From assembly GCF_004135645.1 (NCBI RefSeq), contig NZ_SDPW01000001.1:310001-374000 (forward strand): a stretch of 64,000 nucleotides of DNA, read 5' to 3'. This DNA is from Senegalimassilia faecalis. Lineage in GTDB: Bacteria > Actinomycetota > Coriobacteriia > Coriobacteriales > Eggerthellaceae. The notes beneath the pieces were generated by a model that was not told the DNA's origin, did not search any database, and saw only the letters and a program-made list of their open reading frames with translations. The stretch's first letter is position 1; every line of letters begins with the position of its first letter. The translations under genes and the position numbers were made by a program. Positions 4,463 through 11,037 of the stretch are shown here, one piece after another.

Positions 4463-5728
4463 TTATGCCAGATTGCACGCCTTTTTCAAAGCTTCGGCCT
4501 TGTCGGTGGCCTCCCAAGTGAACTCGGGAAGCTCGCGACCGAAGTGACCGTAGGCGGCCGTCTTGCGGTAAATGGGGCGACGCAGGTTCAGCTCGTCGAT
4601 GATGGCGCCGGGGCGCAAGTCGAACACTTCGGAGACGGCGCGTTCGATGTCGGCCACGGGCACGGACTCGGTGCCGAACGTGTCCACCATGATGGACACA
4701 GGCTGAGCCATGCCGATGGCGTAGGCAACCTGCACCTCGCAGCGGTGCGCCAAGCCGGCGGCCACCACGTTTTTCGCCACCCAGCGCGCCGCGTAGGCAG
4801 CCGAGCGGTCCACCTTCGTGCAGTCCTTGCCGGAAAATGCGCCGCCGCCGTGACGGCCCATGCCGCCGTAGGTGTCGACGATGATCTTTCGGCCGGTCAG
4901 GCCGCAGTCGCCCATGGGGCCGCCGATGACGAAGCGGCCGGTGGGGTTGATGTGGATGCCGGCGTCAGGCGCCAGCTCCACGCCCTCGCGCTCGAGAACG
5001 GGTCGGATGACGTTCGCTTCGATCTCGGCGCGCAGCTGTTCGGTGGAGATGTCCTCGGAATGCTGCGTGGACACGACCACCTTCTCCACGTTGACGGGCT
5101 TGTCGTCCACATAGCGCACGGACACCTGCGTTTTGCCGTCGGGGCGCAGGTAGGGCATGGTGCCGTTCTTGCGCACCTTGGCCAGCTGCTCGGACATGCG
5201 TTGTGCCAGGTAGATGGGCATGGGCATGAGCGTGGACGTCTCGTCGCACGCGTAGCCGAACATCATGCCCTGGTCGCCCGCGCCGACCTTCTCGTAGGGG
5301 TCGTCGCCGGCCTGGCCGTGCTGGGCCTCGTAGGACTCGTCGACGCCCTGGGCGATGTCGGGGCTTTGGTCGTGGATGGCATTGAGCACGCCGCACGTGT
5401 CGCAGTCGAAGCCGTACTTCGCGCGGTCGTAGCCGATCTCGCGCAGCACCTCGCGCGAAAGCGCGGGAACGTCGACGTATGCCTGCGTGCGGATCTCGCC
5501 GGCCACGATGATCATGCCCGTGGTGGCCATGGTCTCGCAGGCACAGCGCACCTGCGTGGGGTCTGCCGGCTGGCCCGACGGGGACACGTAGCCCTGCTTG
5601 GCAAGCTCGGTTTCCTTCTCCAGGATGGCGTCGAGCACGGCATCGGAGATCTGGTCGCACACCTTGTCGGGATGACCCTCGGTGACGGATTCGGACGTGA
5701 ACAGGTAAGAATTGTGCGCGTTGGCCAT
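4463..5728 (-). CDS. metK: S-adenosylmethionine synthetase
   Basis: Makes S-adenosylmethionine from methionine and ATP. The 421-residue protein starts [18 protein letters not shown] with [12 protein letters not shown] just after, carries the [15 protein letters not shown] motif at about 149-163, and the phosphate-binding [19 protein letters not shown] near 292. The ATG at 5728 is chosen because AAGGAGG precedes it at ideal spacing; an in-frame extension to 5857 would run through the structured leader. A riboswitch-like leader and promoter lie upstream. An internal fragment (5196-5377) recurs at 14161-14342. Confidence 0.97.
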
Positions 5729-5740
5729 AGATGTTCCTCC

Positions 5741-5833
5741 TTCATCGTTGTCGGCCGGACCACCTTGGGGCCGCTTGCCCCAGGTTGGTGTCGGGATCAG
5801 CGAGCCAACCCTCTCCCCCGACTCTTGATAAAC
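5741..5833 (-). promoter_or_regulatory. candidate SAM-I/IV-clan riboswitch in metK leader
   Basis: The leader opens with GTTTATCAAGAG, matching the ATCAAGAG start of SAM-I aptamers. It continues with GGGGGAGAGGG, GGCTCGCTGATCCCG and CCAACC, similar to the GGAGGG...GGCCC...UGA...CCCGGCAACC core. A P3-like hairpin CCTGGGGC/GGCCCCAAGG is followed by GGTGGT. GTTTATC pairs with GATGAA just before metK (closing P1), and GTCGG pairs with CCGAC. The SAM-I P4 arm is missing, so a SAM-IV or SAM-I/IV variant fits best. The P1 3' strand shares two A residues with the AAGGAGG ribosome site, implying translational control. Not confirmed by covariance search. Confidence 0.65.
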
Positions 5834-5885
5834 GGATATGCTCGGGCGACCGCGCAAAGGCCGCCCGCGTTTATGCTAGCTGCGA

Positions 5886-5913
5886 ATACTACCACACAGG
5901 CAGCATTTGTCAC
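5886..5913 (-). promoter_or_regulatory. promoter of metK
   Basis: Minus strand: GTGACA (5908-5913), 16 nt, then TAGTAT (5886-5891), with TGG directly before the -10 forming an extended -10. Transcription would start near 5879, about 46 nt before the aptamer closing stem. Confidence 0.6.
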
Positions 5914-6061: not shown

Positions 6062-6862
6062 TTACAGCAAGCCGAAGAAGTTGTTCACCGTCACCGACGC
6101 AAGCCACATCGTGCAGCGATACGCGGTGGCGCCAGCCAAGCAGCACACCGCCGCCGCTGCGGCCAGCGAAAGCACCTGCTCAGGCGTTTTCGCCGCCAGC
6201 GCGCCCAGCGCCGCAGGAGCCGCGCCGCCAACGATAACGGCCAAGCCCCACACCAAAAGCGCCTGGTCGGCACCGGCACCAGAAACAACGCCGTACGCGG
6301 CCGCCGTCAGCGCGGCCACCACGCCGCCGGCCACCAGCAGCTTCGCGAACAGACTGGTGTCGGGCTCTTTGCGCCAGGCCGCCAAGGCCAGGTACAGCGC
6401 CACGCCAAGCGGCATGGCCGTGCCCGCATAGCCCAGCGGCAGAAGCGGCGTGTTCCACGCCAGCTGCGACGACATCATGTACGATTCGCCGGCCATGAAC
6501 GAAAGCAGCACGCCGAACACGGCGCCCAGCACCGCAAACGCCTTGCGTGCACCAGCAGAGGCCTCGCGTACCAGCAGCACGAAGTACACGATGGCGCACA
6601 CGGCCATAAGCCCGGTCAGCGCTGCCTCCACGAAAATGCCGCTGGTGGGGTGACTGAGCGCCCCCATGATGTGCTCGGGATGCGACAGGTGCGTCACCGA
6701 CGCGATGCCGCCCGCGCACGCCACCACAGCCGCCACCACGACGGCAAGCTTGTTCGTAGCGCGCGTCTTGCCGGCGAACTCATCGATGGCCACGCATGCC
6801 AGCATCCAGCCGCCCGCGCCCGTCAGCACGGTGAACAGGACCAACGACCACTGGATTTCCAT
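6062..6862 (-). CDS. dmsC: DmsC-like membrane anchor subunit
   Basis: Membrane anchor of a DMSO-reductase-type complex, expected to oxidise menaquinol and pass electrons to the iron-sulfur subunit. The 266-residue protein is nearly all hydrophobic, with about eight membrane segments starting at WSLVLFTVLTGAGGWMLACV, and resembles DmsC in length and in its conserved HLSHPEHIMGAL segment. The ATG at 6862 is preferred over an extension to 6931, because it lies 1 nt after the Fe-S subunit stop with GGTGAG upstream. Translational coupling is likely. The exact quinone site is not assigned. The gene symbol is by family, not by proven DMSO substrate. Confidence 0.85.
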   Translation of the reverse strand: MEIQWSLVLFTVLTGAGGWMLACVAIDEFAGKTRATNKLAVVVAAVVACAGGIASVTHLSHPEHIMGALSHPTSGIFVEAALTGLMAVCAIVYFVLLVREASAGARKAFAVLGAVFGVLLSFMAGESYMMSSQLAWNTPLLPLGYAGTAMPLGVALYLALAAWRKEPDTSLFAKLLVAGGVVAALTAAAYGVVSGAGADQALLVWGLAVIVGGAAPAALGALAAKTPEQVLSLAAAAAVCCLAGATAYRCTMWLASVTVNNFFGLL

Positions 6863-6863
6863 C

Positions 6864-7487
6864 CTACTCACCATCTTTCTGCATATAGCGGCCCGATCCG
6901 GCCAAATCCTTCGATTCCTGCCACTGCGCATAGCGCTCGGACAAGATGTAGTGCGTCGCAGGCTTGTTGCCCACGTCGGTCAGCGTGTGAACGGCCGACT
7001 TCTCGGCAGCGGCAAGCGCTTTGGACGCATCCGAGGTCGGGTCATCCAGATCGCCGTAGAAGCGCGCCCCACCCGGGCAGTTGTGCACGCACGCCGGCAG
7101 GTCACCCTGCGCGGTCAGATGTCCGCACAGCGTGCATTTCTCCACAACGCGCTCTTCTTTGTTCCACGAGCGCACGCCGTAGGGGCAGGCCATCATGCAA
7201 TACTTGCAGCCGATGCACTTCGCCTTGTCCACCAGCACCACGTTCGTGTCGGGATCGCGGTAGCTTGCGCCCGTCGGGCACACATGCACGCACGGGGCGT
7301 TTTCGCATTGCTGGCAGTGCACGGGAAGGAAGTACTGCTGGATGTGCGGGAAGTCGCCGAACGGCCCCACCGTCATCACCTTGTTGTAATACGACCCCAG
7401 CGCGATGCCGTTCTCCATTTTGCAGGCAATCTCGCAGCTGAAGCACCCGGAGCATCGGTCCAGGTCAACCACTATAGCGTTACGCAT
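6864..7487 (-). CDS. dmsB: four-cluster ferredoxin-type electron transfer subunit
   Basis: DmsB-like subunit that carries electrons from the membrane anchor to the molybdopterin subunit. The 207 residues hold four Cys groups: CSGCFSCEIAC (from residue 12), CQQCENAPCVHVC, CIGCKYCMMAC, and CTLCG with CVHNC, sixteen cysteines for four [4Fe-4S] clusters. No Tat signal is present, as usual for this subunit, which is exported with its partner. It overlaps the catalytic gene by 16 nt and is followed within 1 nt by the anchor, so the three are one translational unit. Confidence 0.93.
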   Translation of the reverse strand: MRNAIVVDLDRCSGCFSCEIACKMENGIALGSYYNKVMTVGPFGDFPHIQQYFLPVHCQQCENAPCVHVCPTGASYRDPDTNVVLVDKAKCIGCKYCMMACPYGVRSWNKEERVVEKCTLCGHLTAQGDLPACVHNCPGGARFYGDLDDPTSDASKALAAAEKSAVHTLTDVGNKPATHYILSERYAQWQESKDLAGSGRYMQKDGE

Positions 7488-10345
7488 GTCTGAATCACCT
7501 CCGTGGGTTCGCTGTACTGCGGCATCCAGGGCTCGAAGTCCTCAGGCTCCGTCCAGGCGCCTTCCGGACCGCTTTCGGCCGGGGCGATTGCCACCTGGTA
7601 AGCGCGCAGCGTGTACGTGCCGTTGACGTCGGACAGACGCCCCGTCGACTTCGACAGGCGGTTAACGGTGACCGAGCACCACGATTGGTCGCGCTTGCCT
7701 TCCTGGTCCAAGAACTCGGGAAGCCAGAAGCGCTCCATGTACACCTCGCCGGGGCGCACGCCCTTCGTCACGCGCACCTTGCCGCGAATCTCGGCGCGGC
7801 GCGAGCGAATCCAGGCCCACTGCCCGTCTTTCACGCCGTACTTCTCGGCGTCGTCGGGATACACCCACACCTCGGGGACGGGGTAGATCTCGCGCAGGTA
7901 GGGAACGTTGCGCAGCGTGCCGTGGTGGTACATCGGTAAACGGCCGTTGCTCATCACCAGCGGGTATTCCGTGTCCGTCAGCGGGCTTTCCTCGGGCTCC
8001 TCGTAGTACGGAAGCGGGTCGTAACCGTACTTGACCAACGAGTTTGCCGCGTTCGGGTTCTCGACGGGGTTATCAACGAACACCTCGGGGTGCATAGCCC
8101 ACGGGCTTGCCGACAGGCCAAGCGTGATGTAGCCCTCCGAGTACGGCTCGCACTTGCCCGATGCCGTGCCGAAACCGGTAAGGTAGCCGCAGGCATCGGT
8201 TTGCTTGTAGTAGTAATAGGTATGCCAGTCTTCCCAGCTGCAGAACTCGTACGGCGCCTTGTCGCAGAACTCGTCCCACGTCATGCCAAGCCCGGCCACG
8301 TGCGCGTTGCGCTCATCGGTGTCGGTCAGCGGCATGGGGATGCCACCGGCGGCGGCCACCATGCCCTTCGTGTCGTAGATGGCCTCGCGGCAGTCCTCGT
8401 CGCCAAGCTCCATCATGCGCTTGGTCAGGTCGGACCAAATCATGGCCTCGTTGCGCGTCTCGAACAGGTGCGTGCACTCCTGGCGCGCGAACACCTTGTT
8501 CAGAATCTGGATGGGCTGGTTCGACTCAAGCCATTCCAGGATGGGAAGCACGTAGTCGGCCGCCTCGATGGTGAAGCTGGTGGGATACATGTACATGTGC
8601 ACGATCAGGTCAAGCTGCGGCAGCAGGTTGTAGCAGCGCTCCGTTTCGGCAAGGTTCTGCAGCTTGTTGCCCGAACGCTCCAGCCAGATGCGCGGCTTGT
8701 ACGGCTTGCCAGTTTCGATGGCGTCCCACACGTACGGGATGACCGACATGGCCCACTGGCCGATGCCGCGATGCTCGGAAAAGCCAAGGCGGTTACGCTC
8801 CATGTCGGCGCTGACCAGGCCGTACATGCCGCCAAGTTCATCGGCCATTGCAGGCTTGGGGAAACGCTGCAAAAGCGCACCGGGCTTTTCCACGTCGCCG
8901 TTCAGCAGCGAAAGCAGCGCATAGCCCGCCGAAGCCTGGCCGGACTGCGGGTTCTGGTCGGTGGCAACGCCGCCGACGATGCCCGCCGTCTTCGCCTCGC
9001 AGAAGATGTCGATGGCCGCCTCGATGTCGGCCGCATCGCACCACGTCACCTCGGCCGTCTTCTCAAGCGTCCACTCGCGCGAACGCTCGTAGGTAAGCTG
9101 GAACGCCGTCTTGTAGCCGCTGACGCCGTCGATGGTATAGCCCTCGTCGTTGAACAGCTCAGCTTCCGTTTCCTCGTCGAAGAAGCGGTTGAGCTCCTCT
9201 TCGGACTTCGGATACGGCACGGCAACGGGGCCGCCGGTTTTCTTATCCCAGATGACGAAGTACGGGATGCCGCAATAGCCAAGCGCCGGGTTGTCGTTGC
9301 TCTTCGCCGTGGCATGACCCGTCAGCGTATCGGTTGCCGTGGCGGCCATCTGCGCGTCGTTTTCCTCTTTCGACACCAAGCCCAGGTCAACGGCGCGAAC
9401 CGGAATGCCCGTCTTCGGGTCCACCAGGTACGGCAGGTTCGTCCACTTCAGGCAGAAGTCGGCATCGTAGCCGCGCTTCTCGATCATGTACTTCACCCAG
9501 CACAGCTGCATAGCAACGTCGGAGCCGGCGCGGATGGGCAGCCACACGTCGGCGCGCGCGGCGTCCACGGTGAAGCGCGGGTCCACCACAACCGTCTTGC
9601 AGCCCGCAGCGCGGCGGTCGGCCATGACGCGCCCACCGCCCGGAGGCGTGTCGGCCGCCGGCTGCGCCGCCCAGATGACCACGGCGTCGATGTCGACCTC
9701 GGGGTTGTACATCTCGAAGCAGTTCGAGTCGGCCATAGAGCAGTTGCCCGTCATGAAATCTCCGCCGTACATAAGCTTGTACGACACCATGCGCGGCAGG
9801 TAGCACTGCGCGCAGCCCGGCTCGAACGTGTTGGGCGACTGGATGGCCGCCGCGAAACGGTTCACGCTCCAGAACTGCGGGTTTCCGCCGCCGCCCGTGG
9901 ACATGAAGATAGACTCGGGGCCGTATTGCTTCTTGGACTCCCACAGCTTCTGCGCGATCTCGTCGATGGCCTGCTCCCACGTGATGCGCTCCCACTCGTT
10001 GCCGCCGCGCTCGCCCACGCGACGCATGGGGTACTTGTTGCGGTTGGGGTTGTACAGCGCCTGGATGCCCGACAGGCCCTTCGCGCACAGGCCGCCATGC
10101 GTCGTGCCGTCCTCGGTATTGCCCTCAAGCTTCACCACGCGCCCGTTTTCCACGGTGGCGATGACGGCGCAGCGCGCCACGCAGGCGCGGCACAGCGTCT
10201 TCACCTTGCGGGTGCCGCTGCTGGTCACCTTCGCTTCGGCAGCCACCAGGTTGCCCACGTCGATGGTTGCGCCGAGCGCCGCGCCGCTGGCCACAAGGGC
10301 CGAGACCTTCGCGAAGCTGCGACGCGTCATTGTCGCTTGTCCCAT
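7472..10345 (-). CDS. Tat-exported molybdopterin oxidoreductase, catalytic subunit
   Basis: A 957-residue bis-MGD enzyme of the DMSO reductase superfamily. MTRRSFAKVSALVASG is a twin-arginine signal (RR at residues 8-9). A [4Fe-4S] site follows (C52, C55, C59, C87), then the molybdopterin domain and a C-terminal MopB dinucleotide-binding domain (YPLVMSNGRLPMYHHGTLRN region). Cys181 in CAQCYLPRMVSYK aligns by position with the Mo-ligand Cys/Sec of formate dehydrogenase-type enzymes; this is inference. The ATG at 10345 has GGAGGAGG upstream. Substrate is unknown: Eggerthellaceae use relatives for DMSO, TMAO, nitro- and catechol compounds. It lies in a torD-accessory-A-B-C operon. Confidence 0.9.
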   Translation of the reverse strand: MGQATMTRRSFAKVSALVASGAALGATIDVGNLVAAEAKVTSSGTRKVKTLCRACVARCAVIATVENGRVVKLEGNTEDGTTHGGLCAKGLSGIQALYNPNRNKYPMRRVGERGGNEWERITWEQAIDEIAQKLWESKKQYGPESIFMSTGGGGNPQFWSVNRFAAAIQSPNTFEPGCAQCYLPRMVSYKLMYGGDFMTGNCSMADSNCFEMYNPEVDIDAVVIWAAQPAADTPPGGGRVMADRRAAGCKTVVVDPRFTVDAARADVWLPIRAGSDVAMQLCWVKYMIEKRGYDADFCLKWTNLPYLVDPKTGIPVRAVDLGLVSKEENDAQMAATATDTLTGHATAKSNDNPALGYCGIPYFVIWDKKTGGPVAVPYPKSEEELNRFFDEETEAELFNDEGYTIDGVSGYKTAFQLTYERSREWTLEKTAEVTWCDAADIEAAIDIFCEAKTAGIVGGVATDQNPQSGQASAGYALLSLLNGDVEKPGALLQRFPKPAMADELGGMYGLVSADMERNRLGFSEHRGIGQWAMSVIPYVWDAIETGKPYKPRIWLERSGNKLQNLAETERCYNLLPQLDLIVHMYMYPTSFTIEAADYVLPILEWLESNQPIQILNKVFARQECTHLFETRNEAMIWSDLTKRMMELGDEDCREAIYDTKGMVAAAGGIPMPLTDTDERNAHVAGLGMTWDEFCDKAPYEFCSWEDWHTYYYYKQTDACGYLTGFGTASGKCEPYSEGYITLGLSASPWAMHPEVFVDNPVENPNAANSLVKYGYDPLPYYEEPEESPLTDTEYPLVMSNGRLPMYHHGTLRNVPYLREIYPVPEVWVYPDDAEKYGVKDGQWAWIRSRRAEIRGKVRVTKGVRPGEVYMERFWLPEFLDQEGKRDQSWCSVTVNRLSKSTGRLSDVNGTYTLRAYQVAIAPAESGPEGAWTEPEDFEPWMPQYSEPTEVIQTCVTL

Positions 10346-10383
10346 GAAACCTCCTCCTTTGTTTCTTCTTGGGTTAGCTCGTC

Positions 10384-11037
10384 TTATTGAAAGACCGCAA
10401 GGAAAGCAGCGCCTTCCTTCGTGGTCGTCCAACCGTCCTCCCAGACCAGGCCGGCGCATTGCTCCAGGCGGTCCGTGAAATAGCTGGGGTAGATGGCCGC
10501 GGCCGACACGTGGCGCGACCGGGGCGCCGCGGCGCAGATAGCGGCAAGTTCATCGTCTATCTGGCGTTTCGTGCGCTTGGTACCGTTGCAAAACACCAGC
10601 AGTCGGCGAAAGCCCTCGGCGTTTTCCGGTTCGTCGGCAAACAGGCGCGCTAAGCGGGCAGACGGACGCAAGCGTTCAAGCACCTTGCCGCCCTTGTCGG
10701 TTAGCGTATACGTGGCGCGCGCCATGTCCACGCGCTCCTCTTCGATGTCGGGGTCGTATTCGGGCTCGGGCAGCTGCTCGGCAAGCAGGCCTTCGCGCAC
10801 CAGCGCGTCTATCAGCGTGCCCATAGACTGGAACATGGTTGCAGCCTGGGGTTTTGCCGCCATGCGGCCCTCAAGGTCGAAGCGGCTGATAGGGTCGGCG
10901 CCTTCGCCGCCGGCCGCCGCAAGCGCTTCCAGGTACAGCTCGCGCTTGCCCGGCTCTCGGCGGATAAGCACCACCGCTTGCTCGAGTTCATCGGGCGCGC
11001 TCGTTGCTTCTTCGCCTTTCAGCTGCTCGCTCATCAC
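10384..11037 (-). CDS. unknown accessory protein of the molybdoenzyme operon
   Basis: A 217-residue soluble protein that I do not recognise by motif. It has no signal peptide, membrane segment or metal-binding cysteine cluster. Two stretches look like winged-helix folds: residues about 70-120 (TLIDALVREGLLAEQ, ARATYTLTDKGGKVLERL) and 140-215 (RLLVFCNGTKRTKRQIDDEL, CAGLVWEDGWTTTKEGAAFLA). A DNA-binding or chaperone-like role is possible, but this is a guess. The ATG overlaps the torD-like stop by 4 nt and the stop lies 38 nt before the catalytic subunit, so it is certainly co-expressed. The conserved position suggests a maturation or regulatory factor. Confidence 0.75.
   Translation of the reverse strand: MMSEQLKGEEATSAPDELEQAVVLIRREPGKRELYLEALAAAGGEGADPISRFDLEGRMAAKPQAATMFQSMGTLIDALVREGLLAEQLPEPEYDPDIEEERVDMARATYTLTDKGGKVLERLRPSARLARLFADEPENAEGFRRLLVFCNGTKRTKRQIDDELAAICAAAPRSRHVSAAAIYPSYFTDRLEQCAGLVWEDGWTTTKEGAAFLAVFQ

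Follow-up and report, generated by a model that had tools for sequence, protein, structure and literature searches.

The leader of metK in Senegalimassilia faecalis very probably carries a variant of the SAM-I (S-box) riboswitch that lacks the P4 arm and would act as an OFF switch on translation. The window, i.e., the whole stretch of 64,000 nucleotides that was analysed, contains this element directly 5' of metK, where the SAM-I model RF00162 matches positions 5834-5739 of the minus strand in a cmscan search, scoring 46.9 bits where the gathering score is 44.4. As its E-value is 1.4e-7 for the 64-kb window searched on both strands, the match is not due to chance, and it is the only one in the genome. 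Read by analogy with known systems, function and mechanism are ordinary, with SAM feeding back on metK through a SAM-I riboswitch that would act on translation. What is unusual is the missing P4 and the number of members that the standard model misses.

Organization of the metK leader

From 5' to 3', the leader presents a promoter-like site, a short hairpin leader, the aptamer, the GGAGG motif, and the metK start codon, which is the ATG at 5728, within a longer mechanical open reading frame beginning at 5857 (Table 1). The promoter-like site is the sole one between 5700 and 6100 (shuffle mean 0.0), and transcription would be expected to start at around 5879. Beside metK, on the minus strand at 6062-10459, lie reading frames that by eye resemble a molybdopterin oxidoreductase, a ferredoxin-type subunit, and a membrane anchor.

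Table 1. Features of the metK locus and of its leader, in positions of the window.
Feature	Position	Strand	Basis
metK, S-adenosylmethionine synthetase, 421 aa	4463-5728	minus	Pfam PF00438, PF02772, PF02773, all three MetK domains
Shine-Dalgarno core GGAGG, contiguous with P1	5736-5740	minus	sequence; 7 nt before ATG 5728
P1 3' strand GAUGAA	5741-5746	minus	pair counts
J3/4 CCG, PK-1 3' strand within GCCGAC (CCGAC 5754-5750), J4/1 AAC	5747-5758	minus	sequence; the P4 site of SAM-I
P3: ACCAACC ... GGUGGU, variable P3b loop, CAACC/GGUG binding core	5759-5789	minus	pair counts
P2 with kink-turn: P2a GUCGGG/CCCGAC, kink-turn strands GGA and GCUGAU, P2b GAG/CUC	5790-5822	minus	pair counts
PK-1 5' strand GUUGG in L2	5805-5809	minus	pairs with CCGAC
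P1 5' strand UUUAUC	5827-5832	minus	P1 pairs counted in alignment
Hairpin inside P0 (CGGGCGGCC / GGUCGCCCG)	5843-5867	minus	folding; stem altered and pairing kept in L033, L017
Candidate switching strand AUAAACG, 5' arm of P0, fully complementary to CGUUUAU 5834-5828	5868-5874	minus	sequence; folding
Promoter-like site: GTGACA 5913-5908, 16-nt spacer, TG-extended TAGTAT 5891-5886	5886-5913	minus	site scan

All the sequence blocks listed in the sequence-only reading are found on the minus strand, namely AUCAAGAG, GGAGAGGG, GGCUCGCUGAUCCCG, CCAACC, GGUGGU, and GAUGAA followed by GGAGG. The length of about 93 nt given there needs a small correction, the Rfam match being 96 nt long.

More than 60 relatives were collected, in which compensatory changes occur in every helix and in the pseudoknot. 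Among 29 distinct sequences, 97.4% of the 841 cells are paired, and nine pairs have changed on both sides, where shuffles give 3.0 and slid controls 0-3, so that the covariation proposed earlier as a check on these leaders is indeed present. The P2a and P2b helices are paired in 98.9% and 100% of their cells, with changes on both sides, and the A and GA of the kink-turn are invariant. The P3 helix (98.7%) presents a compensatory replacement of A-U by G-C at its base, together with an invariant CAACC/GGUG core and short loops that are not conserved, while the five base pairs of PK-1 (GUUGG/CCGAC) are paired in 96.6% of the cells, with one compensatory replacement of G-C by A-U (L026). The six core pairs of P1 are retained in all or nearly all of the sequences, and the AUC/GAU of P1 and the AAGAG joining strand are nearly invariant (alignment A1), with A, C, or G at position 9.

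Assignment to SAM-I

The members of the SAM clan are told apart by their architecture: SAM-I combines PK-1 and P4 with a P2 that holds a kink-turn of six nucleotides; SAM-IV has no P4, and has P5 and PK-2; and in SAM-I/IV, which has a P4, P2 is undivided and PK-1 is missing (PMC6890682; PMC2864571). The metK element shares with SAM-I the AUC/GAU core of P1, the AAGAG joining strand, the kink-turn P2, the pseudoknot between L2 and J3/4, a P3 with CAACC/GGUG, a SAM-related gene, and a score above gathering, and it differs from SAM-I in the lack of P4, in the link of only three nucleotides between the pseudoknot and P1, and in a contiguous pseudoknot of 5 bp. It is therefore closest to SAM-I, given that the SAM-I kink-turn and PK-1 are present and that P4, P5, and PK-2 are not. 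As the P4 helix has been named as the feature that separates SAM-I from SAM-IV (PMC6890682), the element is termed here a P4-less SAM-I variant, not an orthodox member. From what is known of the family and from the gene context, we infer that SAM would be the ligand and that the switch would work with OFF logic.

SAM-IV riboswitches are likewise actinobacterial. They belong to the same Rfam clan and combine PK-1 with a missing P4 (PMC6890682), as the metK leader does, and the SAM-I/IV type has the binding core of the clan in common with it, which is what can be said for placing the element in either of these classes, a placement that we consider very unlikely. The RF01725 (SAM-I/IV) model reaches 28.0 bits at the leader, below its cut-off of 41.1, and RF00634 (SAM-IV) has no match there, its best match elsewhere in the genome scoring 21.8 against 38 bits. 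The architecture points the same way, given that the two-part kink-turn P2 and the covarying PK-1 found here are both absent from SAM-I/IV, the P4 of which is missing here, and that neither the kink-turn, which is of SAM-I type, nor the lack of P5 and PK-2 fits SAM-IV; there is neither P5 nor PK-2 in the leader, as the ribosome site and the start codon come directly after P1. Both identities were thus ruled out by score and architecture, and with them the SAM-I/IV variant suggested by the sequence-only reading. Its other suggestion, a new subclass, was too strong, given that RF00162 recognizes the element and that SAM-I riboswitches whose P1 contains the ribosome site were already reported in 2007 (PMC2258182).

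A SAM-I fold may also have changed its ligand, as in the spermidine riboswitches derived from SAM-I (PMC10853860). Such variants exist, but a change of this kind is highly improbable here, where metK lies downstream, the core blocks are retained, and the change in the junction apparently removes P4 and not the bases of the pocket.

Loss of the P4 arm and distribution of the compact aptamer

In the P4-less SAM-I variant of the window, only 12 nt (CCG-GCCGAC-AAC) lie between GGUGGU of P3 (5764-5759) and the 3' strand of P1 (GAUGAA, 5746-5741), with a linker of 3 nt from PK-1 to P1, and the cmscan alignment with RF00162 skips most of the P4 columns, in agreement with the earlier statement that the arm is lacking. 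This helix-free 12-nt junction is found in all 51 parsed relatives, which read as P1, AAGAG or CAGAG, P2, P3, 3 nt, GCC(N)(A/G)(C/U), another 3 nt, and GAU. Given that P4 is usual in the architecture of SAM-I, the affinity of the metK leader could be altered. The compact relatives suggest that a covarying group of SAM-I aptamers manages without this arm, so that a strengthened PK-1 might make P4 unnecessary. No description of a P4-less SAM-I was found in a limited search of the literature, in which an earlier one may have been missed.

A scan with RF00162 gave matches in 37 of the 138 genomes of the window's family, over the cut-off in 28 of them; 38 true elements were retained and two weak matches dropped. 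The matches L124 and L125 were read as false. When P4 is left out of the covariance model (R2), 70 of the 138 genomes give a match. As R2 was trained on the window's family, scores within it are favourable by construction, but the newly found members lay outside the training set. For about half of the family genomes matched by R2, a comparable scan with RF00162 gives nothing. The annotation of these bacteria therefore probably misses many such elements, and the claim that the element is common to relatives of the Eggerthellaceae or Coriobacteriia type is borne out. The metK gene follows 27 of the 38 family loci found with RF00162, and 22 of 24 further loci that were inspected among the new R2 members.

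The search across the class added families f3, f5, and f6, with a compact layout. For 100 members from other families of the class, pattern counts give 15 compact elements and 82 with a P4-like spacer, and in at least 72 of the 100 there is an extra hairpin right after AUCAAGAGG and before P2; the loss of P4 and the added hairpin thus sort largely by family. Aptamers with both P4 and the hairpin next to AUCAAGAGG make up part of L129-L225 (e.g., L153, L181, and L208), and a hairpin inserted at this point would enlarge the junction. The Firmicutes loci examined are P4-bearing SAM-I leaders before metK.

Matches to R2 were also obtained elsewhere in the Actinomycetota. At five such loci (L241, L242, L244, L248, and L262), P4-less SAM-I-like aptamers fused to a Shine-Dalgarno sequence precede various genes, with a purine-rich stretch resembling a ribosome site, and then a start codon, 3' of the aptamer; the reading frame downstream of L241 resembles, by eye, the start of threonine synthase. 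In L123, L274, and L280, P3 is greatly enlarged and the remaining aptamer unchanged.

Probable control of translation

The closing stem runs into the ribosome site, as the sequence-only reading had noticed: GAUGAA (5746-5741) is followed by GGAGG (5740-5736) and by the AUG at 5728. The same fusion is seen in the relatives, where GGAGG or AAGGAG continues P1 and the start codon lies a short way further 3', and the P1 3' strands of the compact group (GAUGAA, GAUGAAA, GAUAAGA, and GAUAGGA) abut or overlap the Shine-Dalgarno sequence. Base changes in P1 preserve its pairing, as in L119, where UUUUAUC faces GAUAGGA.

Duplex energies indicate that UCC at 5836-5834 could lengthen P1 to the Shine-Dalgarno sequence past the bulged G5833. 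In 43 distinct sequences, the complementarity between the 5' flank of P1 and the side of the ribosome site is above that of control flanks (median control fraction 0.10, with a significance inflated by relatedness), so that P1 can extend over the ribosome site. When the window leader is folded without SAM or the pseudoknot, the predicted unpaired fraction of the Shine-Dalgarno sequence drops from 0.97 to 0.25 once P1 is formed, and the P1 form costs approximately 3 kcal/mol, a predicted price that could be paid by the binding of the ligand. For L019 and L023-L025, folding with P1 formed predicts no drop in access to the Shine-Dalgarno sequence, in a program that includes neither the pseudoknot nor SAM, and for some genera other than the window's the predicted switch is not clean.

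In the mechanism proposed here, P1 would be unstable when SAM is absent, leaving the AAGGAGG of the ribosome site open for the synthesis of MetK. The binding of SAM to the P1/P3 core would close P1 (UUUAUC/GAUGAA), which may then be extended by the pairing of UCC with GGA, and the closed, extended stem would block the binding of the 30S subunit, given that the Shine-Dalgarno region begins with the 3' strand of P1 and that P1 is extendable by UCC/GGA; the synthesis of SAM would drop as a result. As the closing stem holds the start of the ribosome site, abundant SAM probably leads the enzyme to shut down its own translation, and the leader would represent a very compact natural translation switch.

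A SAM-I aptamer could instead act through the termination of transcription, as in the Firmicutes, in which transcription attenuation predominates (PMC2258182). This is hardly credible for the metK leader, where P1 adjoins the ribosome site and only 12 nt separate P1 from the AUG, and where no terminator-like site was found between 5700 and 6100; a terminator platform is thus rejected, as there is no room for one and none was found. The fusion of P1 with the ribosome site and the lack of a terminator-like site favour translation, in line with the earlier view of a SAM-clan aptamer that most likely acts at this level.

An arrangement in which the 3' side of P1 includes the ribosome site, with no terminator, is known as "direct translation attenuation", an established predicted mechanism that was described in 2007 and is commonest in Actinobacteria (Barrick and Breaker, PMC2258182). 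The mechanism of the metK leader is therefore not new, no different one having emerged, and the loss of P4 is not mentioned in the passages of that account that were consulted. The SAM-I riboswitch of the met operon of Xanthomonas campestris also acts mainly on translation, but through a separate downstream anti-Shine-Dalgarno hairpin, whereas the ribosome site lies in or next to P1 here (PMC7270179).

A candidate upstream switching strand in the window's genus

A tentative refinement of the P4-less SAM-I reading, possible but rather unlikely to hold, is that the main competitor of P1 is not a downstream element but the upstream strand AUAAACG of the P0 helix. Its 7 bp are a perfect complement to the 5' strand of P1 in five leaders from two genera, the window's included (L001, L030, L033, L017, and L018), with a shuffle frequency of 0.0007-0.004 per leader. 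The inner stem is altered with its pairing kept, and folding predicts a clean switch for L001, L030, and L033. In another group, a different upstream helix overlaps the extension of P1, with G-C replaced by A-U between L014 and L019.

Against this, the 7-bp helix was found post hoc and is absent from most genera, i.e., from the others that were tested, and an upstream hairpin that folds early could merely delay P1. In the family as a whole, upstream pairing against P1 does not exceed the chance level (mean p 0.43, 62 leaders), and it was accordingly ruled out as a family-wide rule and kept for the two genera only. In the window's genus, AUAAACG might hold the 5' strand of P1 in the SAM-free state. 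A broader picture, which we regard as doubtful, would be that of a P4-free SAM-I lineage in the Actinomycetota in which PK-1 leads straight to P1, the ribosome site lies within P1, and an upstream anti-P1 strand sets the switch in the window's genus; if so, the expression platform of this genus would lie 5' of the aptamer, not 3'.

Other genes behind the same aptamer

At 14 loci (L007, L008, L009, L016, L026, L027, L031, L034, L035, L118, L122, L128, L160, and L169), the same kind of P4-less aptamer, in which position 9 is mostly C, is followed by a protein of 130-216 aa that seems to stand alone and belongs to one conserved family (alignment A2). No match to this family was found in Pfam or NCBIfam, nor a convincing one in the PDB, and its gene is probably controlled by SAM. 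The profile of the family has a weak match in the window's own genome, which was not accepted as a homologue, the reading frame resembling a MarR-type regulator.

Another small reading frame lies 3' of the compact aptamer in L232 and L285 (genera g45 and g44), with a CPECH motif in L232. Finally, genome G321 has two compact aptamers (L172 and L173) approximately 4.5 kb apart, the downstream reading frames of which have nearly identical starts.
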